Positions 34,218-55,427 of a stretch of DNA of 64,000 nt are shown one piece after another (positions within the stretch are counted from its first letter, which is position 1; each line of letters opens with the position of its first letter). The notes beneath the pieces were generated by a model. That model saw nothing but the letters and a program-made list of their open reading frames with translations. It searched no databases and was not told the DNA's origin. The stretch comes from Candidatus Goldiibacteriota bacterium HGW-Goldbacteria-1 (GTDB lineage: Bacteria; Oederibacteriota; PGYV01). The position numbers and the translations under genes were made by a program. The stretch is from the NCBI GenBank assembly GCA_002839855.1, contig PGYV01000005.1:143824-207823 (forward strand). Direction: 5' to 3'.

Positions 34218-36221
34218 TCAGACCGCCGCTTTCACTTTGCTGTCAATTTCTCTCAGCACGCTTTCCAAATCCCCTTTTTCAATTACTTTTCTGCCGACTC
34301 TTACTACCGGCCCCCTGTCGCACCTTTCAAAGCAGAACGTTGCCCTGACTTCTGTTTTGTCTTTAATTCCATTTTCTTCAAGATACGCTACAATCTTTTT
34401 CATCATATCCTGTGAGCCCCTTATAAAACACCCGGTTCCAAAACACACTTCAATTTTAAGTGCATCCGGGGTTTTTCCGCCGCATACAAGTATGCCGTCA
34501 GAATCCGTTCTTTTTCTGTTTTTATACCCTGTATGCAGAAGTTCATGCGCTTTCTTGTGGTCGTTAAAACCATGTTTTTCGTAAAGTTCCTTTATATACG
34601 GATTCTCCTGCGATTTGTGAAGCTGCTGCATTTTGTCATTTTCATAAATGCCTTTGGCCCTTTCCTTTTTTATATCTGTTTCCTTATAACAGGGCTGTCC
34701 GGCTCCGCCAATACAGCCGCCCGGGCAAGCCATTACTTCCACCAGGTCATAACTTTTTGTGCCGTTCTTTACGCTTTTCAGCATACGCCTTGCGTTCATA
34801 AGCCCGTGAACAACAGCCAGATTATAGGTCCTGCCGTTAAGTTCCACAGACAATTCCCTTATGCCGTCTTCCCCTCTGGCGTTTTTAAACTCGTATCCTT
34901 CAAGCGCTGTACCTGTTGCTTTCTCTGCCACATACCGCAGCACCGCTTCTGTGACCCCTCCGCTGCTTCCAAAAATTACACCGGCGCCGGTCTTATATCC
35001 CAAAGGCATATCAAAAGATTCCGGAGTAAGATTTTTAAAATCAATTCCACATTCGCCTATCATTCTGGCAAGTTCCCTTGTGGTAAGCACGTGGTCCACA
35101 TCCGCGATTTTGTCCTTTATGAATTCCGGCCTTTTGGCCTCGAATTTTTTCGCGGTACACGGCATTATAGAAACCACGCTTAAATCCTGCTGCCGAATAT
35201 TTAATGCGGCAGGCAGCATTTCTCTTGCCACGCTTCCAAACATCTGCTGGGGCGACTTACAGCTGGAAAGGTTGCCAAGGTATTCCGGGTAATACTGCTC
35301 CGCGAATTTTACCCATGCAGGGCAGCAGCTTGTAAACTGCGGCAGTTTTTCGCCTTTTCCCGCCCTTTCAATAAATTCATTGCCCTCTTCAATTACTGTC
35401 AGGTCTGCAGTGAAAGAAGTGTCATATACTTTATCAAAACCCATCATCTTAAGCGCTGCCACTATACGCCCTGTTACTGCTTCCCCTGTTTTTAAACCAA
35501 ACTCTTCACCAAGCGCCACCCTTACCGCGGGCGCAATCTGCACCACAACAGTCTTTTCCTTGTCATGAATATCTTTCCATACGCTTTCAACTTCACTTTT
35601 AATTATAAGGGCGCCCGTCGGGCATACCCTTGCGCACTGCCCGCAGTTAACGCATTCAACCTTATTTAAATCCCTGCCAAAACTTGGCACCACTTCGCAC
35701 TTGCTGCCGCGGAAAGCAAAATCAATAGCTCCTACTCCCTGAACCTCAGCGCACATCCTTACGCAGTCGCCGCACAGCACGCATTTGGAAGGGTCCCTTA
35801 CTATGCTGTATGCCGAAGCATCCACAGGTTTAGACTGCTCCCTTTTCTTAAACCTTACCTCCTGTATGCCAAGCCTTCTGGACAGTGTCTGAAGCTGGCA
35901 GTGCTCGCTTTTCCTGCAGGTCACACAGTCATGGTTGCCGTTGGCCAGAAGCAGTTCAACAATTATCTTTCTCATATTTCTTATCTCTTCGGTGTTGGTC
36001 TTTATCTTCATCCCCGCTTCCGGAATTGTGGAACACGCCGGCTGAAGCCCCCTGCCTTCCACTTCCACCATACACAGCCTGCACGCGCCGTATACGGAAA
36101 GCTCCGAATGATAGCAGAAAGTGGGCAGTTCTATGCCGGACTTTCTTATTATTTCAAGCAGATTTTTTTCGCCTTCGCACTTTACATCCCTGCCGTCAAT
36201 TAACACTTTTGTATTTTCCAT
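34218..36221 (-). CDS. hydA: [FeFe] hydrogenase catalytic subunit of trimeric HydABC type
   Basis: A 667-residue electron-bifurcating-type subunit. Order: [2Fe-2S] (C36, C47, C50, C63), His-Cys [4Fe-4S] (NHDCVTCRKSEHC), two [4Fe-4S] clusters (C147-C157, C190-C200), H-cluster domain (TSCCPAW at 297-303, MPCTAKK at 353-359, ACPGGCIGG at 498-506), then a C-terminal thioredoxin-like [2Fe-2S] domain (C593, C598, C630, C634). HydA makes or consumes H2; in HydABC it couples with NADH and ferredoxin. One base separates it from hydB; AAAGGAGG lies before the ATG. Confidence 0.95.
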   Translation of the reverse strand: MENTKVLIDGRDVKCEGEKNLLEIIRKSGIELPTFCYHSELSVYGACRLCMVEVEGRGLQPACSTIPEAGMKIKTNTEEIRNMRKIIVELLLANGNHDCVTCRKSEHCQLQTLSRRLGIQEVRFKKREQSKPVDASAYSIVRDPSKCVLCGDCVRMCAEVQGVGAIDFAFRGSKCEVVPSFGRDLNKVECVNCGQCARVCPTGALIIKSEVESVWKDIHDKEKTVVVQIAPAVRVALGEEFGLKTGEAVTGRIVAALKMMGFDKVYDTSFTADLTVIEEGNEFIERAGKGEKLPQFTSCCPAWVKFAEQYYPEYLGNLSSCKSPQQMFGSVAREMLPAALNIRQQDLSVVSIMPCTAKKFEAKRPEFIKDKIADVDHVLTTRELARMIGECGIDFKNLTPESFDMPLGYKTGAGVIFGSSGGVTEAVLRYVAEKATGTALEGYEFKNARGEDGIRELSVELNGRTYNLAVVHGLMNARRMLKSVKNGTKSYDLVEVMACPGGCIGGAGQPCYKETDIKKERAKGIYENDKMQQLHKSQENPYIKELYEKHGFNDHKKAHELLHTGYKNRKRTDSDGILVCGGKTPDALKIEVCFGTGCFIRGSQDMMKKIVAYLEENGIKDKTEVRATFCFERCDRGPVVRVGRKVIEKGDLESVLREIDSKVKAAV

Positions 36222-36222
36222 A

Positions 36223-38127
36223 TTAATTGCCTCCTTTAAAATTTATCGCTTTAAACCTGCAGGTATCAATACATACCCCGCATTTAACGCACTTGCTTTT
36301 ATTTATTACATAAGGCTCTTTAACTTTTCCTGTTATCGCCGCCGAAGGGCAAACCTTGGCGCACAGCCCGCACCCTTTGCACAGCGCTTTATCTATCACC
36401 ACGTCCATAAGCCCTTTACATTCATTGGCAGGGCACTTCTTATCCTTTACGTGCGCTTCATATTCCTGCGGAAAATAACGCATCGTGGATAACACAGGAT
36501 TCGGCGCTGTCTTTCCAAGCATGCAAAGCGAACCTTTGTTTATCGCGCCGGCAAGTTCTTTTAACACGGGTATAACGGACTCATCGGCTTTTCCTTCGCA
36601 TATGTCATTCATAAGCCACAGCATCTGCTTTGTACCTTCCCTGCAAAGCACGCACTTGCCGCAGCTTTCATTCTGCGTAAACTGCATAAAATACGCCGCT
36701 ATTTTTACCATGCAGGTGCTTTGATTCATTACCACAAGCCCGCCCGACCCGACCATTGCCCCTACGCTTTTTAAATTTTCAAAGTCCAGTTCCAGGTCAA
36801 GGTGTTCCGGGGTTAAGCACGCGCCGGAAGGGCCGCCAATCTGAACCGCTTTAAAATTACCCTCTTCCACTTTTCCGCCTTCGCCTGTAACACCGCCTGC
36901 TATCCCGAATATTATTTCCCTTAATGTGGTGCCAAATGGCACCTCTATAAGCCCGGTGTTTGCAACCTGACCTGTCACGGCAAAAGTCTTGGTCCCCGGA
37001 GATGTCTTTGTTCCCATCTTTTTATATTCCAGCGGCCCGTCCATTAATATCAAAGGGATTGTTGCCAGCGTCTCTACGTTATTTATAACTGTCGGTTTAT
37101 CCCAAAGACCTTTCTGTGCCGGAAACGGGGGTTTGGGTTTTGGCATCCCGCGCCTGCCCTCTACAGATGCCATAAGCGCAGTTTCTTCGCCGCATACAAA
37201 CGCGCCCGCGCCTTCCATCACGCTAAGGTTAAACTTCTTTTTTGTTCCAAGCAGGGTGTCGCCAATGATGCCCGATGCCTTGGCGTCAATTACGGCTTTC
37301 TTCATTCTTTTCACGGCAAGCGGATATTCAGCCCTTACATAAACAAAACCTTCGTCTGCGCCGATGGCGTGCGCCGCGATTGCCATACCTTCAATCACAC
37401 TATGCGGATTGCCTTCCATTACGCTTCTGTCCATAAACGCGCCGGGGTCGCCTTCATCCCCGTTACAGATAATGTATTTTTTATCCGAATTTTGAAGCCT
37501 TGTTAAATCCCACTTTTTTCCCGTTGGGAATCCGGCTCCGCCCCTGCCGCGAAGGCCGCTTTCAAGTATGTCAGCGCACACTTTCGCGGGATTATCCTTC
37601 AGCGCTTTTTCAAGTGACGAATACCCGCCGCAAGCTATGTATTCAGTAATATCCTCCGGATCAATGACTCCGCACTGCTTTAATACATACCTGTGCTGTT
37701 TTCTGTAAAAGTCAATCTCTGCCTTGTTAACACATACTTTTCCGTCAGCAGGATTCTTGTATAATAGCCTTTCTATAATTACGCCTTTTTCAATTGTACT
37801 TTTCACTATTTCCTCAGCATCTTCAGGTCTTACTTTTGTATAAAGAATATCTTCCGGCATAATTGTTACAAGGGGGCCCATCTGGCAAAACCCCTGACAG
37901 CCGCTTTTGCTTAAGTGGTTGCCGCCTTTGTCATCATGTTTAAGTTCAACAACAACCTTAATACCTTCTTTTTCAGCAGCCTGCTTTATAGCGTCAAATA
38001 ACTTCAGCGCCCCATTTGCAACACACGCGGTTCCGGCACATATAATAATTCTTCTTTCTTTTAATCCCGCACGTTTCTCATAATCTTCTTTAATTCTGTC
38101 CAGATTCAGTACCTCAATTGTTTGCAT
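36223..38127 (-). CDS. hydB: NuoF-like flavoprotein subunit of bifurcating hydrogenase
   Basis: A 634-residue protein. N-terminal thioredoxin-like [2Fe-2S] domain (residues ~25-115), NADH/FMN core (GRGGAGFPTGKKWD, ICNGDEGDPGAFMDR, EETALMASVEGRRG), SLBB segment, NuoF C-terminal cluster (ESCGKCVLCREG) and a C-terminal two-[4Fe-4S] ferredoxin (CKGCGLCAKVC, CVKCGVCIDTC). This subunit binds NADH and FMN and mediates electron bifurcation/confurcation. Overlaps the hydC end by 14 bp. Confidence 0.95.
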   Translation of the reverse strand: MQTIEVLNLDRIKEDYEKRAGLKERRIIICAGTACVANGALKLFDAIKQAAEKEGIKVVVELKHDDKGGNHLSKSGCQGFCQMGPLVTIMPEDILYTKVRPEDAEEIVKSTIEKGVIIERLLYKNPADGKVCVNKAEIDFYRKQHRYVLKQCGVIDPEDITEYIACGGYSSLEKALKDNPAKVCADILESGLRGRGGAGFPTGKKWDLTRLQNSDKKYIICNGDEGDPGAFMDRSVMEGNPHSVIEGMAIAAHAIGADEGFVYVRAEYPLAVKRMKKAVIDAKASGIIGDTLLGTKKKFNLSVMEGAGAFVCGEETALMASVEGRRGMPKPKPPFPAQKGLWDKPTVINNVETLATIPLILMDGPLEYKKMGTKTSPGTKTFAVTGQVANTGLIEVPFGTTLREIIFGIAGGVTGEGGKVEEGNFKAVQIGGPSGACLTPEHLDLELDFENLKSVGAMVGSGGLVVMNQSTCMVKIAAYFMQFTQNESCGKCVLCREGTKQMLWLMNDICEGKADESVIPVLKELAGAINKGSLCMLGKTAPNPVLSTMRYFPQEYEAHVKDKKCPANECKGLMDVVIDKALCKGCGLCAKVCPSAAITGKVKEPYVINKSKCVKCGVCIDTCRFKAINFKGGN

Positions 38128-38620
38128 TATTTGCCGCCTCCTTCTTTATAATTCCTTCAAGTACAGCCGTTACTTTATCCGCCGTCATCTGTCCGTAAAT
38201 ATCCTCATTTATTACAACCACCGGCGCAAGGCCGCACGCGCCAAGGCAGGATACCGTTTCCATGGTAAAAAGCATATCGTCTGTTGTGTTTTTACCGTCG
38301 CTTAGTTTTAGTTTTTTCTGAATCGCGTCTATAAGTGTTTCGGAGCGTTTAACGTGGCACGCGGTCCCGTCACACACTTTGATTATGTACTTGCCTTTGG
38401 GGGCAAGCGCAAAATGCGAATAAAAAGTGGCAACCCCATAGACCCTTGCAGGCGGAATTTTAAGGCATGTCGCGGTGAAGTCCATAATTTCTTCCGGCAG
38501 ATACCTGTATTCGTCCTGTATTTCCTGCAGTATCGGGATAAGCCTGGCGGCATTCGCGCCGTTTCTTTCTATTATTTCCATTACCTTTTCAAACTTCTTC
38601 TGCTTTTCCATGGTTTTCAT
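38114..38620 (-). CDS. hydC: NuoE-like [2Fe-2S] subunit of bifurcating hydrogenase
   Basis: A 168-residue NuoE-type subunit: helical start, GVATFYSHFA, then the thioredoxin-like [2Fe-2S] domain with CDGTACHV and CLGACGLAPV. Binds one [2Fe-2S] cluster and feeds HydB. AAGGAG six bases before ATG 38620. First hyd structural gene, 29 bp after rex. Confidence 0.95.
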   Translation of the reverse strand: MKTMEKQKKFEKVMEIIERNGANAARLIPILQEIQDEYRYLPEEIMDFTATCLKIPPARVYGVATFYSHFALAPKGKYIIKVCDGTACHVKRSETLIDAIQKKLKLSDGKNTTDDMLFTMETVSCLGACGLAPVVVINEDIYGQMTADKVTAVLEGIIKKEAANNANN

Positions 38621-38649
38621 CGTGTTCTCCTTTGCGATATGATTTCCTG

Positions 38650-39294
38650 TTATTTTTCTTTCTGCTGCTTGATTCTCTGCGATAAGACCGCAAGTGATGA
38701 TGCAAGGTTCTCATTCTGTACAACCACATCTGCCGGAACATTCAGCATTACCGGCGCGAAATTCCACAGCGCTTTAACTCCGGCTTTCACAAATAAGTCC
38801 GCCATTGCCTGGGCGCTTTCAACAGGCACCGTAATGATTCCAATTCCTATTTTATTTTCTTTAACAAGCGCGCCAATCTGGTCCGGCGAAAAAATCTTTC
38901 TGCCCGCCACTTCCTTACCCTGTTTCTTTTTATCCTCGTCAATCCCGGCAATTATATCCAGCCCGTAATTTTTAAATCCCTGATAGCTTAAAAGCGCTTT
39001 GCCAAGGTTACCAACACCTGCTATAACCGCGTTTGACATCTTATTCCATCCAAGGATGTATTCAATTGCCTCTATTAACATTTCCAGGTTGTACCCAATC
39101 TTAGGCCTTCCCGAAAGGCGGGTGTATTCAAAGTCTTTTCTGACCTGAATTGGAATCAGGTTTAAATCATTTGCCACAGCAGTTGTAGAAATGTAAACAA
39201 CCCCTTTTAATGTTAGGGACTTAAGGTAATTGCAGTACGCCGGCATCCTTCTTAATGCGGGAACCGGTATCGCCTTTCTGTCTATCTGTGTCAT
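38650..39294 (-). CDS. rex: Redox-sensing transcriptional repressor Rex
   Basis: A 214-residue regulator. N-terminal winged-helix DNA-binding domain (VPALRRMPAYCNYLKSL, IPIQVRKDFEY) and C-terminal Rossmann fold (AVIAGVGNLGKALLSY, IDEDKKKQGKEV, PVESAQAMADLFVKAGVKALWNF). Rex binds NADH/NAD+ and derepresses fermentative genes when NADH is high. Here it leads the hydCBA operon, so it likely controls its own transcript. AGGAGG precedes the ATG. Confidence 0.95.
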   Translation of the reverse strand: MTQIDRKAIPVPALRRMPAYCNYLKSLTLKGVVYISTTAVANDLNLIPIQVRKDFEYTRLSGRPKIGYNLEMLIEAIEYILGWNKMSNAVIAGVGNLGKALLSYQGFKNYGLDIIAGIDEDKKKQGKEVAGRKIFSPDQIGALVKENKIGIGIITVPVESAQAMADLFVKAGVKALWNFAPVMLNVPADVVVQNENLASSLAVLSQRIKQQKEK

Positions 39295-39799: not shown

Positions 39800-39833
39800 A
39801 AAAAAACGAGACGCAATATATTGCGTCTCTATA
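39800..39833 (-). terminator. Intrinsic terminator formed by a family D REP
   Basis: Hairpin GAGACGCAA/TTGCGTCTC with a TATA centre at 39808-39833, followed on the minus strand by a run of T (39801-39806). It is downstream of the sensor operon (last stop at 39887). It carries CTAT rather than CTAC, so the mobile signature has decayed while the terminator form is kept. Confidence 0.7.
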
Positions 39834-39886: not shown

Positions 39887-40327
39887 TTACTTTTTCTCTG
39901 CTGCAAGTTCTGCAAAAGCCGGAATGTTCACAATCATCCATTTATAAAACGGATATATCTCATCATAAGCTTCCGGGGATAATTCTTTTTTTAGAACAGC
40001 CAGCCACCCTTCCAGTGTTGCCGAAAAATATAAGCCACCAAAACCATGGCTGCCATAAACCTTAAATACCCAGATAACCGTATCAGCAAGGACTTCAGGG
40101 TTAAAAGCGGTAAATAAGGATTCCATGAACATAGAGTGATTGTTATTATTATCCTTCATCATTTCAAGATTATTATTCCCGGTAAGTTCAAGAATATCCT
40201 TCCTTGCCGCCATCAGAATATTCATTTCCGCGGCAATTTTCGCCCTTTTTTCGGAATATTCACCCGTGCTTTTTTCTGAAGGCTGTTTTAACTTTTTTGC
40301 GCTTTCAACAAGCATGTCCCTGTTCAT
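39887..40327 (-). CDS. Helical protein of unknown function in B12-sensor operon
   Basis: A 146-residue, mostly helical, cytoplasmic protein (no signal or TM). No family recognised. The C-terminal half, VIWVFKVYGSHGFGGLYF then LEGWLAVLKKELSPEAYD and FYKWMIVNIPAF, resembles helical sensor-partner domains seen near B12-binding regulators; this is only an impression. Its ATG overlaps the kinase stop by 4 bp (ATGA), so it is probably produced in step with the kinase. Possible modulator or phosphotransfer partner. Confidence 0.7.
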   Translation of the reverse strand: MNRDMLVESAKKLKQPSEKSTGEYSEKRAKIAAEMNILMAARKDILELTGNNNLEMMKDNNNNHSMFMESLFTAFNPEVLADTVIWVFKVYGSHGFGGLYFSATLEGWLAVLKKELSPEAYDEIYPFYKWMIVNIPAFAELAAEKK

Positions 40328-41448
40328 TTTCCCACACCCCTTTTTTTTGGAAAAGCAAAAGTAAATTTTGCACCCTTCCCTGTATTATTTTCAACACTTA
40401 TATACCCGCCGTGCTGTTCCACTATCTTTTTACAGATTATAAGCCCAAGGCCTGTGCTTTTATCGCCCGAAGCTTTTACCGCTCCGGTTTTCCCAAAATA
40501 CTTAAACAAAGAATCCATTTTATTTTCCGGGATACCCGGCCCTTCATCCGTCACTTCAAAAACCACATAACCCTCATTCATAAAAACATTCAGCATTACA
40601 TTCCCGTTAGACGGCGTAAATTCAACAGCATTACCCGCTATGTTATCCAGTACCTGCTGCAGTTTCATTTTATCCGCTGAAATAACCCCGGTATCAGGGG
40701 ATATATTTATATGCAGTTTAATTTTTCTGTTTTCCGCTTTTATCCTGTTTAGGTGAAGCATCTCTTCAATTTCTTTTTCAAGGCTGATATCAGAATAAAC
40801 AAGCTCCAATGTCCCCGATTCAATGACAGAAACATCAAGAAAATCATTTACCAGCGCTTCCATGTGAACCGATGAAGATTCAATGGCGGTTATAAATTCA
40901 GACTGCCTTTTGCCAAGCTCCCCGGCAGCGCCGTTTAAAAGAAGGCTTGTGTACCCCTTAATAACCGTTATCGGTTTTCTTAAATCATGGGCAGCCATTC
41001 CAAGAAACCTGTTTTTCATGTCATTCATCTTCTTTAATTCCGCATTACTCTTATGAAGTTCACGCGACATATTGCTAAGTTCATTATTAAGGGCAATCAG
41101 TTTGGACTGAAACTCTTCTATCTCCATCACATCCATCCTTCCAAGAATCAGATATTCGCCGTTAATTTCATAAAAAGAAAAATAAAAAGCTTCAGGAATA
41201 CCCTTATGGCTGTTTATACTGAACAAGTGCTCTGATTCAGGGTTTTCTGTAAGCTGTTGGATGTTCATGCGCTCGAAAAAATCAATAAACACTTCTTTAA
41301 TAGAATTTATGGGAATTCCATTTTTGACAAAAAGAGAGGCAAATTCATTATAATCGGTGACTTTCCCGTCTTTTTGGACAACAAAATAAAAAATAAGGTT
41401 ATTTTTGTGCATGTATTCATTTATTATATTCTCTTTAGTTGTTTTCAT
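40324..41448 (-). CDS. Sensor histidine kinase
   Basis: About 374 residues from ATG 41448 (AAAGG eight bases upstream; a longer TTG start at 41463 is possible). Order: N-terminal PAS-like domain (~15-110), coiled coil, HisKA with AAHDLRKP (His154 phospho-acceptor), then HATPase with DNIAGNAVEF (N box), DEGPGIP (G1) and STGLGLIICKKI (G2). No TM helix, so soluble. No response regulator follows; the target could lie elsewhere. Coupled to the B12-binding protein (14 bp overlap), which is therefore the likely input. Confidence 0.9.
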   Translation of the reverse strand: MKTTKENIINEYMHKNNLIFYFVVQKDGKVTDYNEFASLFVKNGIPINSIKEVFIDFFERMNIQQLTENPESEHLFSINSHKGIPEAFYFSFYEINGEYLILGRMDVMEIEEFQSKLIALNNELSNMSRELHKSNAELKKMNDMKNRFLGMAAHDLRKPITVIKGYTSLLLNGAAGELGKRQSEFITAIESSSVHMEALVNDFLDVSVIESGTLELVYSDISLEKEIEEMLHLNRIKAENRKIKLHINISPDTGVISADKMKLQQVLDNIAGNAVEFTPSNGNVMLNVFMNEGYVVFEVTDEGPGIPENKMDSLFKYFGKTGAVKASGDKSTGLGLIICKKIVEQHGGYISVENNTGKGAKFTFAFPKKRGVGK

Positions 41449-42070
41449 TAATATACCTTTCAAGTTCTGAAATTGAATCTATAACAATTATCTTTTCGTA
41501 CTGACTGAATTCCCCCGCGTAACGCTTTAATCCCTGCCCGCCGGCTAATATAACAAGGTCAGCAAATTCCTGCCGTATTCGCTTTACCGTATTTATAAGC
41601 TTTGGCATATTAAAATAAATACTTATAGACAAACCTAAAACATTCGGTTTTTTGTCTTTTATAAGGGTAATAAGATTTTCAACCGGAGTATTTGCCCCAA
41701 GGAAATAACCATGCCACCCGTTCATTTCAAAAATATCAGCCACCATTTTTGCGCCTATCTGATGAAACTCATTTGCCAGGCACGATATAACAGCAGTTTT
41801 GTTTTTATGTTCCGCTCCAAATATCAGCGGATAAGACAAAGACATGCAGTATTCGGTTATTCCGGTAGCCATATGTTCAACCGCCGGTGTGATTGTATTT
41901 TCTTCCCAAAGGCTGCCGACTTCATACATTGCCCTCTGAAATAAATCCACATACAATTCTTTTAAGGTTATTCCTTTTTTGATAAGATCCGCGGTTATTT
42001 CGCTGCATGCGATACGGTTTCCGGAAATAAGATTTCCCCTGTAAGTTTCATATATCTGCTGCGTTATCAT
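41435..42070 (-). CDS. Stand-alone cobalamin-binding protein with CarH-type light-sensor motif
   Basis: About 211 residues. N-terminal four-helix B12-binding-2 domain with SLWEENTITPAVEHMA: Trp55 and Glu65-His66 are spaced exactly Wx9EH, the signature of the adenosylcobalamin photoreceptor domain of CarH/LitR. The C-terminal Rossmann-like B12-binding domain has NEFHQIGAKM (His103, the lower axial ligand, in E-x-H-x-x-G) and LGLSISIYF, AGGQG. It has no DNA-binding HTH, so the signal would pass to the kinase next to it. ATG 42070 (AAGGA eight bases upstream) is preferred to ATG 42079. Confidence 0.85.
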   Translation of the reverse strand: MITQQIYETYRGNLISGNRIACSEITADLIKKGITLKELYVDLFQRAMYEVGSLWEENTITPAVEHMATGITEYCMSLSYPLIFGAEHKNKTAVISCLANEFHQIGAKMVADIFEMNGWHGYFLGANTPVENLITLIKDKKPNVLGLSISIYFNMPKLINTVKRIRQEFADLVILAGGQGLKRYAGEFSQYEKIIVIDSISELERYINENN

Positions 42071-42334
42071 GCCGGCCATCCTTAAATTTATGTATTTATG
42101 CCATAATTTTCAGCTTAAAACATTAAAGGACTTTTCTTTGCCTTTTATACTTCCGACAGTTCAGGTTAACTTTTACCACTGTTCATTTCCCTTATAAACA
42201 AAGTTTACCACAAAGAATCCGCAAAAACACAGTGTTTTTGCCCCGATATTCTTGGAGAGGCTTTAAGGTTTGAAGGTTGGGGGTTGAAGTAAGTTTATAT
42301 ATGAAATAAGCCCGGACAGTAAAAGTCTAAACAA

Positions 42335-42463: not shown

Positions 42464-42496
42464 AAAAAAACGAGACGCAATATATTGCGTCTCTAC
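42464..42496 (-). terminator. Family D REP acting as probable intrinsic terminator of the mre operon
   Basis: GAGACGCAA/TTGCGTCTC hairpin (42472-42492), CTAC at 42493-42496, and on the minus strand a T tract (42465-42471). It is the first clear hairpin downstream of rng, past the heptamer array. Confidence 0.65.
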
Positions 42497-42539: not shown

Positions 42540-42882
42540 CAACTTGTTACTTGTTACTTGTTACTTGTTACTTGTTACTTGTAACTTGTAACCTGTAACC
42601 TGTAACTTGTAACTTGTAACCTGTAACTTGTAACTTGTAACCTGTAACCTGTAACCTGTAACCTGTAACCTGTAACCTGTAACCTGTAACCTGGTAACCT
42701 GTAACCTGTAACCTGTAACCTGTAACCTGTAACCTGTAACCTGTAACCTGTAACCTGTTACCTGTTACCTGTTACCTGTTACCTGTTACCTGTTACCTGT
42801 TACCTGTTACCTGTTACCTGTTACTTGTAACCTGTTACTTGTTACTTGTAACTTGTCATCTGTAACTTGTAACCTGTCAGTT
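42540..42882. repeat. Long period-7 tandem array (~48 units)
   Basis: Units of seven bases shift along the array: TTACTTG (42544-42580), TAACTTG/TAACCTG (42580-42740), TTACCTG (42750-42830), then mixed. The core ACCTG or ACTTG is constant while the first two bases vary. One eight-base step near 42691-42694 (extra G) changes the phase. It ends 4 bases before the rng stop codon. Confidence 0.9.
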
Positions 42883-50119: not shown

Positions 50120-52102
50120 CTAAAATGTGACATTCACTCCCGCGTTAATGGTTCTGCCGCGCATGGGGTGCTTATTTACCACCTGATATTCCCTGTTATC
50201 CAGCACATTATCCACGTTTGCGAATATTGACGCGTTTTCACTTATTATGTGCCTTGCGGACAGGTCGTAAATATAGTATTCTTTCATGTATTCCCCCGCA
50301 TTATCCAGCCTTGAATCAATATACCTTACGCCGGCGGAGAGTTTTGTATTAAAAGGCAGTTTGAATTCCGCCTTTGCATAAACGCTGTCTTCCGGGCTGT
50401 ATGAAAGTTTTTTGCCTGTAATAGCGTCCCTTGCGTCAAGATATGAATATGCGCCTGTTATGGTTACAAAATCAAAAAGCGTGAATTCCGCTTCTAATTC
50501 CGCTCCAAGTATAACGGCGCGGTCCAGGTTTACCGGAGATGATACATCATATGTCATATACCCATCCGTTTCTGTAACCCACCTTATCATATCCGTCACA
50601 TCACGGCGGTAAAGCACTATTTTTTCAGACATATTTCCGTCTTTTTTTGTTATTCCCGCCTCGTATGACATTGCTTTTTCCGGCTTAAGCGCCTGATTTC
50701 CCTTTGTCGTGCTGGTATAAACACCGTAAAAATCCAGCGTTTCATCCCAGAATAAATCACCAAACGTGGGTTCAGAAAATGCCTGTGATACAGAGGCAAA
50801 AACGTCTGTGCTTTCCGCCAGCGCGTATCTTGCGCCGCCGCTGAAACTTGTAACCATGCCATAAACCGAATGCACATCTTCCCTTACCGCGGCTGTTAAA
50901 ACAAGTTTTTCAAAAAGGTAAGCGGTTGCATTTGTAATCACCGCATGATTGCCTGTTGATTTATTTCCGGTCTTTAAACTTTTGGCGCTTTTATTTGAAA
51001 ACTCATACCCGCCGTATACATTTACAGGGCCTGCCGTATACGAAGACATTACACTTACCTTTCCTTCGTTTTTAATATGCCTGTCATTCACAAAGATATC
51101 GGGATTTTTAAATGCAAGGTCGCCGCCTCTGTAATAACCGCTTACCACAACCTTTGTTTCGTTAAACTTTAATGTCTCTTCCGCGCCCAGCGCGAATATT
51201 TCATCAAACTGTTTTGCCAAAGGCGACGGCCCAAACTGATTAAAAGGTATGCCTTCTTCACGCTTCATATAATAACCTGATATTTTTGAATCTATCGCGT
51301 CGCCTGAAAAAGAAAGCCTTGCCCCCGCCGAACGCTTTAAAAAACCGGAATTTTCCATATAACCGCTGCTTTTTTCTTCATTGCCTGTTATCGAATACTT
51401 AACCCCTGCTATCTTATAATCCGAAGACAGCGAATACTTCTGAAAATCATCAGAACCATAAGAAACTGACAGATCTGCAATTGTCATTTTCTTTTTTTCT
51501 TTAAGCAGGTTTACAACGCCGGCTGCCGCGTCAGCGCCGTATATGGACGACATTCCGCCTTTTATCACTTCTATTCTGCCTACCCCGGACATTTCCACCA
51601 TGTTCAAGTCCACGCCGCCGGTAAAAATATCATTAAGCGGAATCCCTTCATAAAGCACCAGCGACTGTTTGGAAGAAGCTCCGCGCATATTAAGAGAAGA
51701 TAAACCTTCATAAGGTCCGTATTTTAAAACCGACAACCCCGGAATTTCCGACAGGGCTTCTTCCAGTTTAAGGTAAGCCGCGGCTTTTATTTTTTCTTCA
51801 GTTATAATATTTATACTTCTGGTGACAAGGCCTTCGTATTCGGCCATTTTTCTTGCAGTCACCACAATTTCGCCAAGCGAATTATCCGCCGCCGGTGTTG
51901 CCGCAGCCTTGGGTTTAAAATCATACAAACCGGTATTCTTGCCCGGCTGCGGCGGAGGCACCTGCTGGATTGCATTATCGCCGGCTGCGTTTCCGCCCTG
52001 CGATTCATAAATAGACTGAATGCTGTTGTAATCGTTGGTAAAACCAATTGCCGCTGCCGAAAAAACAATAACCGCTAAAAAAACAAATAATAATCTTTTC
52101 AT
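50120..52102 (-). CDS. btuB: TonB-dependent outer-membrane receptor (BtuB-like)
   Basis: A 660-residue precursor with a signal peptide (~1-20), a linker with PPPQPGK, TonB box EIVVTARK, a plug domain (INIITEEKI, LNMRGASSKQSL, GRIEVIKGGMSSIYGADAAAGVVNLL) and a 22-strand barrel ending RGRTINAGVNVTF. The operon (riboswitch, cobO, btuFCD) points to cobalamin; sequence alone fits siderophore receptors too. GGAGG precedes ATG. Last gene of the B12 unit. Confidence 0.88.
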   Translation of the reverse strand: MKRLLFVFLAVIVFSAAAIGFTNDYNSIQSIYESQGGNAAGDNAIQQVPPPQPGKNTGLYDFKPKAAATPAADNSLGEIVVTARKMAEYEGLVTRSINIITEEKIKAAAYLKLEEALSEIPGLSVLKYGPYEGLSSLNMRGASSKQSLVLYEGIPLNDIFTGGVDLNMVEMSGVGRIEVIKGGMSSIYGADAAAGVVNLLKEKKKMTIADLSVSYGSDDFQKYSLSSDYKIAGVKYSITGNEEKSSGYMENSGFLKRSAGARLSFSGDAIDSKISGYYMKREEGIPFNQFGPSPLAKQFDEIFALGAEETLKFNETKVVVSGYYRGGDLAFKNPDIFVNDRHIKNEGKVSVMSSYTAGPVNVYGGYEFSNKSAKSLKTGNKSTGNHAVITNATAYLFEKLVLTAAVREDVHSVYGMVTSFSGGARYALAESTDVFASVSQAFSEPTFGDLFWDETLDFYGVYTSTTKGNQALKPEKAMSYEAGITKKDGNMSEKIVLYRRDVTDMIRWVTETDGYMTYDVSSPVNLDRAVILGAELEAEFTLFDFVTITGAYSYLDARDAITGKKLSYSPEDSVYAKAEFKLPFNTKLSAGVRYIDSRLDNAGEYMKEYYIYDLSARHIISENASIFANVDNVLDNREYQVVNKHPMRGRTINAGVNVTF

Positions 52103-52118
52103 CTTTCCTCCATAAAAT

Positions 52119-52895
52119 TTATATTTTTAAAAAAATATTATTTTTTCCTGTTATCTGATTCCGGGATAACCCGAACCCATTAAAGCCATAAGCTTCTTTA
52201 ATGTTATTTTCAGACAGCACAACTTCAGGCGCACCTGCAGCCATAACCTTGCCGCCGTTCATCAGTATTACGTTGTCCGCAGTTTCAAAAACCGCATTGA
52301 TGTCATGCGTAACCATTATAACGGTTCTGCCTTTGTCCCTGTACCCGCGGATTATTTCATAAACCTTTGCCTGATGCCCTATATCAAGAAAAGCAGACGG
52401 CTCGTCCAGAAGCATTGCCCCGGCATCCTGTGCCGCGGCGCGCGCCAAAAGCGCAAGCCTCTTTTCCCCGCCTGAAAGCGTCCTGAATTCACGGCTGCTT
52501 TTATCCGCCATGTCAGCTGATTCCAGCGCTTTTTCCACCGCTTTTATATCTTCCGGATTTAAAATCCCAAGCGCGCTTCCGTGCGGCCGCCTTCCCATTG
52601 ATGCTATTTCCTTAACCGTGTAGGCAAATTCCTGTTCTTCAGACTGCGGGACGTAAGAAAATATTCTGCCCTTTTCAGTATTTGATATTTTTTTCATTTC
52701 CCTGCCATCAACAGTAATAATACCTTCATGCCTGCCGGCTATTCCGGCAATAAGTTTTAAAAGCGTGGTTTTGCCCGCGCCGTTTCTGCCCGCTATGACA
52801 GTCAGAGCGCCTATTGGTATTTCAAGGGACGCAATATCAAGTGTAAAGTCACGGCCATATTTAAAGATTACGGATGAAAGTTTTATACCATTCAT
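52119..52895 (-). CDS. btuD: ABC transporter ATPase for B12 (FecE/BtuD-like)
   Basis: A 258-residue ATPase: Walker A GRNGAGKTTLL, signature LSGGEKR, Walker B AMLLDEPSA, switch VTHD. Powers BtuCD-F import. It lies 1 bp after btuC; the riboswitch operon supports cobalamin over iron. Confidence 0.9.
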   Translation of the reverse strand: MNGIKLSSVIFKYGRDFTLDIASLEIPIGALTVIAGRNGAGKTTLLKLIAGIAGRHEGIITVDGREMKKISNTEKGRIFSYVPQSEEQEFAYTVKEIASMGRRPHGSALGILNPEDIKAVEKALESADMADKSSREFRTLSGGEKRLALLARAAAQDAGAMLLDEPSAFLDIGHQAKVYEIIRGYRDKGRTVIMVTHDINAVFETADNVILMNGGKVMAAGAPEVVLSENNIKEAYGFNGFGLSRNQITGKNNIFLKI

Positions 52896-52896
52896 A

Positions 52897-53865
52897 CTAT
52901 TTCACCCTTTTTGCCAGGATTATAAATATAGGCGCGCCAATAAGCCCTGTTATAACTCCCACCGGAAGCTCGCCCGGAAGAAAAATCGTCCTTGCAAGGG
53001 TATCGCACACAAGCAGAAACAGTGCGCCAAAAACCGCGGAAGCCGGCAGAAGAAACCTTAAATCCGGGCCTGTAAACTTTCTGACAGCGTGCGGCACCAC
53101 AAGGCCTATAAACCCAATTACCCCGCTTAAAGAAACCGCGGCAGCGGTTATAATGCTTGCCAGAATAAAATAAAAAAGTTTTAAAAATTCCGGATTAACG
53201 CCAAGGGTGGAAGCGGTCTCTTCTCCCGCGGACATTATGTTAAGGTCATTGGCAAAAAACATTCCGGCAGCAAGGGCTGCTAAAAGTATTATTGCCGCAC
53301 CCTTTATCTGCTGATAATTACTTCCTGAAAGGTCGCCCATAAGCCAGTAAATAACCTTTACTATGTCACGGCTGTTTACCGCGCTTAAAAGCATAACAGC
53401 CGAAGACAGCATTGTCCCTGTCATTACACCGGTTAACAGAAGGCGTGATGAATTTACTCTGCCGTCTTTGATGGAAACTGTGTAAACAAAAAACACAGCA
53501 AGCATGGCGCCCGCAAACGCCGGCGCGATTATAAAAGTAAAACCTGATATTATGCCAATTGAAGCGCCCAATGCGGCGCCGGAAGAGATACCTGTAATAA
53601 ACGGGTCCACAAGAGAATTTCTGAAAAGCGACTGCAGCGCCGCCCCGCTTATGCCAAGCATAGCGCCTACGATAATTGCAAGAATAATTCTGGGCAGCCT
53701 TAAACCGGTTATTATCATGTAATCGGGAGTCCCCTGATTACCGCCTGCCAGTATGGATAATACCGCTGACGGTGATATCTCTGCCGAGCCGATACATAAT
53801 GACACGCCGGCAGCGATAATAAGCACGCCAAGCATTGTTATAGAAATTATAATTCCTTTTTTCAT
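52897..53865 (-). CDS. btuC: FecCD-family permease (BtuC-like)
   Basis: A 322-residue protein with about ten TM helices, GGNQGTPDYMIITGLRLPRI and GLVVPHAVRKFTGPDLRFLLP typical of BtuC/FecCD permeases. Start ATG 53865 overlaps the btuF stop (ATGA). Confidence 0.92.
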   Translation of the reverse strand: MKKGIIISITMLGVLIIAAGVSLCIGSAEISPSAVLSILAGGNQGTPDYMIITGLRLPRIILAIIVGAMLGISGAALQSLFRNSLVDPFITGISSGAALGASIGIISGFTFIIAPAFAGAMLAVFFVYTVSIKDGRVNSSRLLLTGVMTGTMLSSAVMLLSAVNSRDIVKVIYWLMGDLSGSNYQQIKGAAIILLAALAAGMFFANDLNIMSAGEETASTLGVNPEFLKLFYFILASIITAAAVSLSGVIGFIGLVVPHAVRKFTGPDLRFLLPASAVFGALFLLVCDTLARTIFLPGELPVGVITGLIGAPIFIILAKRVK

Positions 53866-54728
53866 TTTAGTGCGTCCTCTTGCAGTAGTATTTTAAGTTC
53901 TTCTATGGCTTCCACAACTCTGGGCCCCGGCCTCATTATCCGGTCAAGCGTCTCCCCCGTGACAGCCGTTATCGTCTTATTTTTTCCGGCTTTGGTCGCC
54001 AAAAAGTACGGCCTTTTTAAGTAATTTTTTTCCGGATTGTAGAAAAGCAGTATTTTTTCAGGGTTTGCTTTTATTATCTCTTCTTTTGATATTTTCGGAT
54101 ACTCGCCATTGTCAGATGCCACCACATTTTGTCCGCCGGCGGCATTTATAAGTTTTCCGGTAAAAGAATTTTCCGATACAGCCATAAGCGGCTCGCCCCA
54201 TATTTCTGCGTATACTTTTATTTTATCGCGCTTTAACGATACCGCTTTTTTAAGTTTCTTTTCAAACTCAGCTATTCTTTTTTCCGCTTTCCTGCCGCCG
54301 CCTAAAAGCATATTTAGTTTTCTCATATCAGATGCAATTTCAGATAATTCTCTGGGATAAAGGACAATTACAGCCACGCCCATTGATTCAAGCTTGTAAA
54401 TGGCGCTCTTCTGCACACCGCCGCCGGAGATCACAGCCTGCGGGCCAAGTTTTATTATCTGTTCTTCATCCGGATTCATGAAATCACCGGCTTTAGGAAG
54501 CAGCTTTGCCTGCGCCGGGTAGTCGCAGTTCTTTGATACTGCCGCAAGTTTACTTTCAAGCCCAAGGTAATAAATCATCTCTGTATGCGCGGGAGATATA
54601 CATACTATTTTATTTACCGGCCCTTTAACTTCCACTGTCCTTCCGACATCATCGGTTATTGACATTGAAAAAATTAAAACCGGAGCCGCCAGCAGGCATA
54701 TTATCAGAACACTTATTTTCTTCACCAA
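53862..54728 (-). CDS. btuF: Cobalamin-binding periplasmic protein (BtuF-like)
   Basis: A 288-residue helical-backbone binding protein of class III: signal peptide (~1-20), SPAHTEMIYYLGLESKLAAV, VSKNCDYP and IMRPGPRVVEAIEEL. The last motif is a cobalamin-type signature seen in BtuF. Delivers B12 to BtuCD. 68 bp after cobO. Confidence 0.9.
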   Translation of the reverse strand: MVKKISVLIICLLAAPVLIFSMSITDDVGRTVEVKGPVNKIVCISPAHTEMIYYLGLESKLAAVSKNCDYPAQAKLLPKAGDFMNPDEEQIIKLGPQAVISGGGVQKSAIYKLESMGVAVIVLYPRELSEIASDMRKLNMLLGGGRKAEKRIAEFEKKLKKAVSLKRDKIKVYAEIWGEPLMAVSENSFTGKLINAAGGQNVVASDNGEYPKISKEEIIKANPEKILLFYNPEKNYLKRPYFLATKAGKNKTITAVTGETLDRIMRPGPRVVEAIEELKILLQEDALK

Positions 54729-54754
54729 ATCTCCTTATTATTTTCTTTACTCTT

Positions 54755-54772
54755 TAGGAACACGTTCCCTAC
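54755..54772 (-). repeat. Small REP-like palindrome, family C variant
   Basis: GGAAC/GTTCC around AC with CTAC at 54769-54772, in the cobO-btuF gap. Confidence 0.5.
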
Positions 54773-54796
54773 AATAAAAATAACCGGCAATATAAA

Positions 54797-55324
54797 TCAG
54801 TACTCTATGCCCTTTCTTGCCTTTAATCCGGCTTTAAACGGGTGCTTTACCTCTTTCATTTCAGTCACAAGGTCTGCCGCGTTTTTTAATATCTTTCCGG
54901 CACCCCTGCCCGTTAAAATAATTTCAGTACCTGCCGGCCTTTGGTTAATTAAACGGATCAGTTCTTCCTGCTTTATCAGTTTAAGATTAATCAGATGAAC
55001 AGCCTCATCAAGCACCGCCAGCTGATACTTTCCTGAATTTATCTCTTTAAAAGTAAGTTCTAAATCCTCCGCTACCCTTTCTTCAAGGGCTTCCATATCA
55101 ATATTTTTTTCAAAAAACGGGGACATTTCATCAAACTTCATGTACTTAACATTATTCATACCCTTCAACATTTTTTCTTCACCGGACTCCAGTTTCCCAT
55201 TCTTTAGAAACTGGCAGAATAAAACCTTTAACCCACAACCGCATGCCCTGACTGCCGCGCCAACAGCTGCCGTGGTCTTGCCCTTCCCATCCCCTGTATA
55301 AATCTGAACCAACCCCTTTTTCAT
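54797..55324 (-). CDS. cobO: Cob(I)yrinic acid a,c-diamide adenosyltransferase (CobO/BtuR)
   Basis: A 175-residue P-loop enzyme: VQIYTGDGKGKTTAAVGAAVRACG, VLFCQFLKNGK, AVLDEAVHLI, ILTGRGAGKILKNAADLVTEM. Adds 5'-deoxyadenosyl to cobalt, giving coenzyme B12, and is also needed for salvage. ATG 55324 has AGGAGG four bases away. After the phosphatase gene by 103 bp, which holds a heptamer array. Confidence 0.93.
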   Translation of the reverse strand: MKKGLVQIYTGDGKGKTTAAVGAAVRACGCGLKVLFCQFLKNGKLESGEEKMLKGMNNVKYMKFDEMSPFFEKNIDMEALEERVAEDLELTFKEINSGKYQLAVLDEAVHLINLKLIKQEELIRLINQRPAGTEIILTGRGAGKILKNAADLVTEMKEVKHPFKAGLKARKGIEY

Positions 55325-55331
55325 ATACCCT

Positions 55332-55427
55332 CCTATCAAGTAACAGCTATCAGCTGACAAGTTACAGCTGATAACCTGCCACCTGTCAACTGCAACTTGT
55401 TACTTGTTACTTGTCACCTGTCTTTAA
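55332..55427. repeat. Period-7 array inside the B12 operon, abutting phosphatase stop
   Basis: Seven-base units such as CAGCTGA, CAAGTTA, TAACCTG, CCACCTG, TTACTTG, TCACCTG run from the cobO SD region to the stop of the upstream phosphatase gene. Confidence 0.7.

Follow-up and report, generated by a model that had tools for sequence, protein, structure and literature searches.

Three genes lie together on the minus strand of the window, the 64-kb stretch of DNA analyzed here, and encode in order a cobalamin-binding protein, a soluble histidine kinase and a 146-residue protein (Table 1). The 3' end of the cobalamin-binding gene (41435) overlaps the start of the kinase gene at either candidate start codon (41463 or 41448), and the kinase gene in turn overlaps the ATG of the third gene by 4 bp, the overlapping arrangement that an earlier sequence-only reading had described. 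The unit is flanked by a perfect 22-bp palindrome, GAGACGCAATATATTGCGTCTC, that is terminator-like on the minus strand, and the upstream copy probably ends the preceding transcription unit. Because identical terminator-like palindromes stand on both sides, as consensus matches only, the three genes probably form an operon of their own. The palindrome occurs in 19 copies genome-wide (at most one mismatch), several of them paired 2.7–4.4 kb apart, and is absent near the unit in two loci of the same genus over the stretch compared. Upstream of the operon, the intergenic DNA also contains a short tandem repeat of the ACTTGTT type (∼42540–42600). There is no response regulator gene among the neighboring ORFs, so the partner of the kinase must be encoded elsewhere. 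No Rfam family reached threshold anywhere in the window and thus no known cobalamin riboswitch was found, and PADLOC gave no defence relation for the unit. Just beyond the operon, a Rex-like redox repressor gene lies beside genes for an apparent NADH-dependent [FeFe] hydrogenase (34218–39294, minus strand).

Table 1. Coordinates of the three genes, the flanking palindromes and a cobalamin adenosyltransferase gene in the window.
Feature	Position	Strand	Remarks
Cobalamin-binding protein, stand-alone, CarH-like	41435..42079	minus	214 aa, or 211 aa from ATG 42070
Soluble histidine kinase	40324..41463	minus	379 aa from TTG 41463, 374 aa from ATG 41448
Predicted globin, photoglobin/phycobiliprotein type, stand-alone	39887..40327	minus	146 aa, ATG 40327
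Terminator-like palindrome and T run, directly after third gene	39808..39829	minus	terminator scan, consensus match only
Identical terminator-like palindrome, upstream of operon	42472..42493	minus	consensus match only
CobA/BtuR-type cob(I)alamin adenosyltransferase	54797..55360	minus	PF02572 at G000:C5:198623-199144, E 3.8e-56; outside operon

The cobalamin-binding protein matches Pfam B12-binding_2 (8.7e-12) and B12-binding (1.9e-15) and is made up of a helical cap and a Rossmann domain, with the motifs Wx9EH, ExHxxG and GxxxP. With the ATG at 42070 as residue 1, the motifs fall at Trp55 and Glu65-His66, in exact agreement with the first numbering, and at E101-x-H103-x-x-G106, and Trp55, Glu65, His66, Glu101, His103 and Gly106 are invariant in an alignment of 19 members. 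Loss of the Trp, Glu and His in orthologues, which the sequence-only reading had named as the finding that would speak against it, was looked for and the motif is kept throughout; in the 32-member tree set G..W-x9-EH is present in every row except the HTH-bearing outgroup (L005). The SignatureFinder signature of light-responsive B12 domains has four elements, GxxW, EH, GxxxP and GxxH (PMC11796333). The window protein carries the first three as GSLW, EH and GANTP, and the fourth reads NEFH, with Asn in most relatives and Gly in some. Wx9EH together with GxxxP is the arrangement that has been tied to light-responsive B12 domains (PMC11796333). The protein thus has the B12 architecture of the CarH/LitR transcriptional photoreceptors, Wx9EH with ExH, but lacks their MerR-type HTH: Pfam finds just the two B12 domains, as had been proposed, so that output would go through the kinase and not through direct DNA binding.

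The kinase has the HisKA (2.7e-16) and HATPase_c (6e-26) domains of a two-component kinase, preceded by a PAS-like N-terminal domain and a coiled coil. Relatives aligned with the kinase, rather than the window protein by itself, supply the PAS assignment, with PAS_9 matches down to 1.1e-6 and PAS_8 matches in 11 of 21. Some relatives of the unit carry a PAS-diguanylate cyclase (GGDEF) in place of the PAS-kinase. At one locus (L059, 805–1413) we observed a PAS-like relative of the kinase N-terminus with a short Cys/His-rich tail (ICMHCHKIRD...ICPEC) and neither a kinase nor a GGDEF domain.

Photoglobins and photocobilins are described as sensors that combine a bilin with B12. Searches with the third protein as a single sequence, and with a first profile, returned nothing meaningful in Pfam, NCBIfam or the PDB. 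Its AlphaFold2 model (16 homologues) is all-helical with a mean pLDDT of 95.3, and Foldseek against the PDB returned mostly allophycocyanins and other globins with a probability of ∼1.0 and TM of ∼0.6–0.65 at weak E-values of at least 0.06, while a viral fold library held no match for the fold. With fused relatives included in the profile, the best PDB match was the globin domain of the photocobilin SasPcob at E = 0.016, a value that is marginal taken alone; SasPcob had been named as the hypothesis ahead of this search. A bridging profile that includes relatives from Azospirillum, Skermanella and Ilyobacter matched allophycocyanin beta at 4e-4 and SasPcob at 5e-4. The domain of the fused Azospirillum relative matches Pfam Phycobilisome above cut-off (5.7e-10) and is matched by the third-protein profile at 40 bits, and one aligned member of the third-protein set matches Pfam Globin (1e-4). 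An hhalign comparison between the third-protein alignment (A1) and the single Azospirillum sequence gave just 10% probability, so the case for globin homology is carried by the HMM and fold results. The SasPcob chain is absent from the best 50 fold matches of a fused relative's model, and the fused relatives have the globin and B12 domains in reversed order compared with SasPcob. From these profile matches and the predicted fold, we assign the third protein to the phycobiliprotein/photoglobin superfamily as a stand-alone globin, which replaces the earlier suggestion of a new adaptor of unknown family. It shares with the photoglobins of the BBAG-2 type a sequence and fold relation to bilin-binding globins and the encoding with a B12-binding protein. 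The nearest known system is therefore the photocobilin and not CarH alone. The nearest solved structures to the B12 protein are photocobilins, followed by the light-responsive domain of CtMerR, and in the model of a fused relative (pLDDT 85.9) the B12 part is closest to the light-responsive domains of CtMerR and CarH.

A genome scan identified 20 relatives of the B12 protein (33–49% identity) in Bacteroidota, Ignavibacteria, Desulfobacterota, a spirochaete, Paenibacillus and Oscillochloris, and relatives of the kinase and third protein adjoin the B12 gene in most of these loci. As the sequence-only reading had proposed to check, the three-gene unit is conserved in other genomes: it recurs in about 20 other loci and in three gene orders (B12-HK-third, B12-third-HK and third-B12-HK) in Bacteroidota, Desulfobacterota and others. 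Where the locus is long enough to judge, the genes are kept together with few exceptions: one locus has the B12 gene alone (L047), one has no third gene within 1.2 kb after the kinase (L034), and in one the reading frames of both the kinase gene and the third gene are broken (L037). The third-protein profile matched 5 of 396 Bacteroidota genomes and 13 of 297 Desulfobacterota genomes, the two weakest matches being spurious. These two (L068, L069) were discarded, one being a membrane kinase and the other a short protein that resembles a coiled coil. In most of the remaining loci the third-protein gene has neighbors for B12 binding and PAS-type signalling. Within the window's own phylum (44 genomes), a close relative of the B12 protein occurs in just the two genomes of its genus; the other genomes have weak B12 matches, many of them in long enzyme-like frames, or none. 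On a midpoint-rooted tree the 20 stand-alone B12 proteins form one clade (100/99), and the window's genus joins an Ignavibacteria protein (95/94). This tree is consistent with horizontal transfer and a single fission or fusion event, whose direction under midpoint rooting could be either.

In five Desulfobacterota loci (L060, L061, L062, L064, L066) the B12 protein carries the third protein at its N-terminus as a fused domain, and the same globin-B12 fusion is found in Ilyobacter polytropus (L075) and Paenibacillus abyssi (L048). The next gene at most fusion loci encodes a protein that begins with the PAS-like domain of the window kinase and continues with either GGDEF or a kinase. The fusions and their PAS-GGDEF or PAS-kinase neighbors thus show a physical tie between the first and third gene products and an output domain that can be exchanged. 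The three proteins have correlated distance matrices (r 0.61–0.87), a correlation to which shared descent also contributes. The best NCBIfam model for the B12 protein is the methyltransferase corrinoid protein MtgC, at 2.3e-11 and far under its cut-off, which would fit an ordinary corrinoid methyl-carrier of a methyltransferase system lying beside a kinase by chance. This is very improbable given that the unit has no methyltransferase, Wx9EH is invariant, the nearest solved relatives are photoreceptors and the B12 gene is kept with the globin and a PAS-HK or GGDEF gene across several phyla.

Residue Asp270 of SasPcob holds the pyrroles of biliverdin, and Trp296 touches both the bilin and the corrin (PMC10979010). 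The numbering of the PDB chain is that of the paper minus six (checked on four residues), and the alignment places Asp270 at Asn60 and Trp296 at Trp86 of the window globin. The corrin-contacting Trp of the photocobilins is therefore present on a phycobiliprotein-type globin, but the Asp that holds biliverdin is not. In an alignment with allophycocyanin, the Asp of CXRD likewise falls on Asn60 and the Cys on Met57. Trp86 is invariant among the 29 globins examined, of which 25 have Asn at position 60 and four have Asp (G002, Paenibacillus, Azospirillum and Skermanella). AbPcob is likewise without the Asp; it has His at this site and binds biliverdin weakly (PMC10979010). Two plasmid genes annotated as 'cobalamin-dependent protein' (Azospirillum, L076 3081–4142; Skermanella, L077 3099–4151) encode fusions of a globin and a B12 domain in which the CXRD site of phycobiliproteins reads CVED, and judging from this motif their globins might hold a bilin through the Cys.

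We searched for pigment supply in the 33 genomes behind the loci collected for either the B12 protein or the globin, a few of which carry just part of the unit. Heme oxygenase of the known families covered by PF01126 was found in 0 of the 33 genomes, with three control genomes positive. The BBAG-2 genomes, in contrast, are reported with heme oxygenase, some of them also with a bilin reductase (PMC10151467). HutW was above cut-off in none of the 33, with a model that matches every genome and control through generic radical-SAM relatives, and HugZ gave one sub-threshold match and nothing above a cut-off that the controls also failed to reach, leaving this search with no positive control. Ferrochelatase is present in 13 of 33 genomes and was not found in the window's own genome, which is rated 100% complete. 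Cobalamin adenosyltransferase (PF01923 or PF02572) is present in all 33. In the carrier genomes the supply of AdoCbl is general and a supply of biliverdin is not evident; an unknown biliverdin route, or uptake from outside, is possible. Because heme oxygenase genes were not found and the Asp is changed to Asn, we favor a globin that is free of bilin. A complete split photocobilin, whose globin would bind a bilin obtained through an unrecognised enzyme or uptake and which would sense red and green light, is improbable. It agrees with the retained globin fold and Trp86, Asn could still hydrogen-bond a pyrrole, and BBAG-2 globins encoded next to B12 proteins do bind biliverdin if heme oxygenase is co-expressed (PMC10151467); it is opposed by the heme oxygenase, HugZ and HutW results, the missing ferrochelatase match in the window's own genome, the Asn in 25 of 29 globins and the weak biliverdin binding of AbPcob.

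The window also contains an apparent B12 uptake and activation cluster (50120–55360, minus strand) that, judged from sequence, encodes a BtuB-like TonB receptor, a BtuDCF-like ABC ATPase, permease and binding protein, and CobA/BtuR. This adenosyltransferase is likely the source of AdoCbl. The same proteins could respond to cobalamin state (AdoCbl versus other cobalamins, or Co redox/oxygen) in mostly dark anaerobes, with the globin sensing or gating a second small molecule. Such a non-light cue is unlikely, though less so than a bilin-loaded globin: the adjoining Rex and hydrogenase genes suggest an anaerobe, B12 uptake genes share the window, no heme oxygenase was found in the 33 genomes and some carriers are by title sediment or deep-water MAGs, but Wx9EH and GxxxP, linked to light-responsive domains (PMC11796333), are never lost. 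Carriers such as Lutibacter and Azospirillum, moreover, are generally not confined to the dark.

The best explanation, to which we assign a probability of roughly 0.55, is that the operon encodes a split photocobilin-type sensor wired to a PAS-histidine kinase, with AdoCbl as the sole chromophore and a globin most likely free of biliverdin. We infer AdoCbl binding, a light response, complex formation and kinase control as follows. The CarH-like subunit would bind AdoCbl with His103 as the lower cobalt ligand and Trp55, Glu65 and His66 around the adenosyl group. The globin would pack on the corrin edge through the invariant Trp86, as does the fused globin domain of SasPcob, and in the window's lineage would most likely act without biliverdin as a cap or hold another ligand. 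On illumination the Co-C bond would break, the Trp/Glu-His helix would rearrange and assembly would change, as in SasPcob, together with kinase output. The pair of B12 protein and globin would in this way set the state of the soluble PAS-histidine kinase, or of the PAS-diguanylate cyclase in relatives. The natural cue may be either light or cobalamin/redox state.

The photocobilins SasPcob (PDB 8j2w, 8j2x) and AbDPcob (8j2y) likewise join a CarH-like B12 domain to a phycobiliprotein-like globin (PMC10979010), and as in some relatives of the window unit they can be coupled to a diguanylate cyclase. They are single polypeptides, whereas in the window's clade the B12 protein and globin are two proteins, fused in the relatives at the seven loci given above, and the window unit is coupled to a separate PAS-histidine kinase. 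The BBAG-2/photoglobin lineage also has a stand-alone globin gene adjoining a stand-alone B12-binding gene and no CXRD cysteine (PMC10151467); unlike it, the window unit includes a kinase or cyclase gene. Photocobilins (PMC10979010), BBAG-2 globins with neighboring B12 genes (PMC10151467) and a signature for light-responsive B12 domains (PMC11796333) had thus been described before. New relative to these three reports are the split, kinase-coupled form, the altered bilin site and the lack of a known heme oxygenase, part of which a 2022 photoglobin survey (Schneider et al.) may contain.

More broadly, and with somewhat less than even confidence, we propose that a lineage of B12-globin sensors has spread by gene transfer among bacteria that make no biliverdin, where a phycobiliprotein-type globin that is bilin-free, or has a new ligand, would form a detachable subunit, tuning an AdoCbl photoswitch and relaying its signal to PAS-kinase or PAS-cyclase outputs that can replace one another. 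Bilin-binding globins have been argued to be older than phycobilisomes (PMC10151467). Related globins that lack the bilin Asp, in genomes that lack heme oxygenase, make it possible to test what such globins do in a bilin-free state, and whether bilin binding is an acquired trait or one that has disappeared. As two-piece B12 switches coupled to a kinase by nature, the units are useful for optogenetics, and they suggest that anaerobes sense light or cobalamin state.
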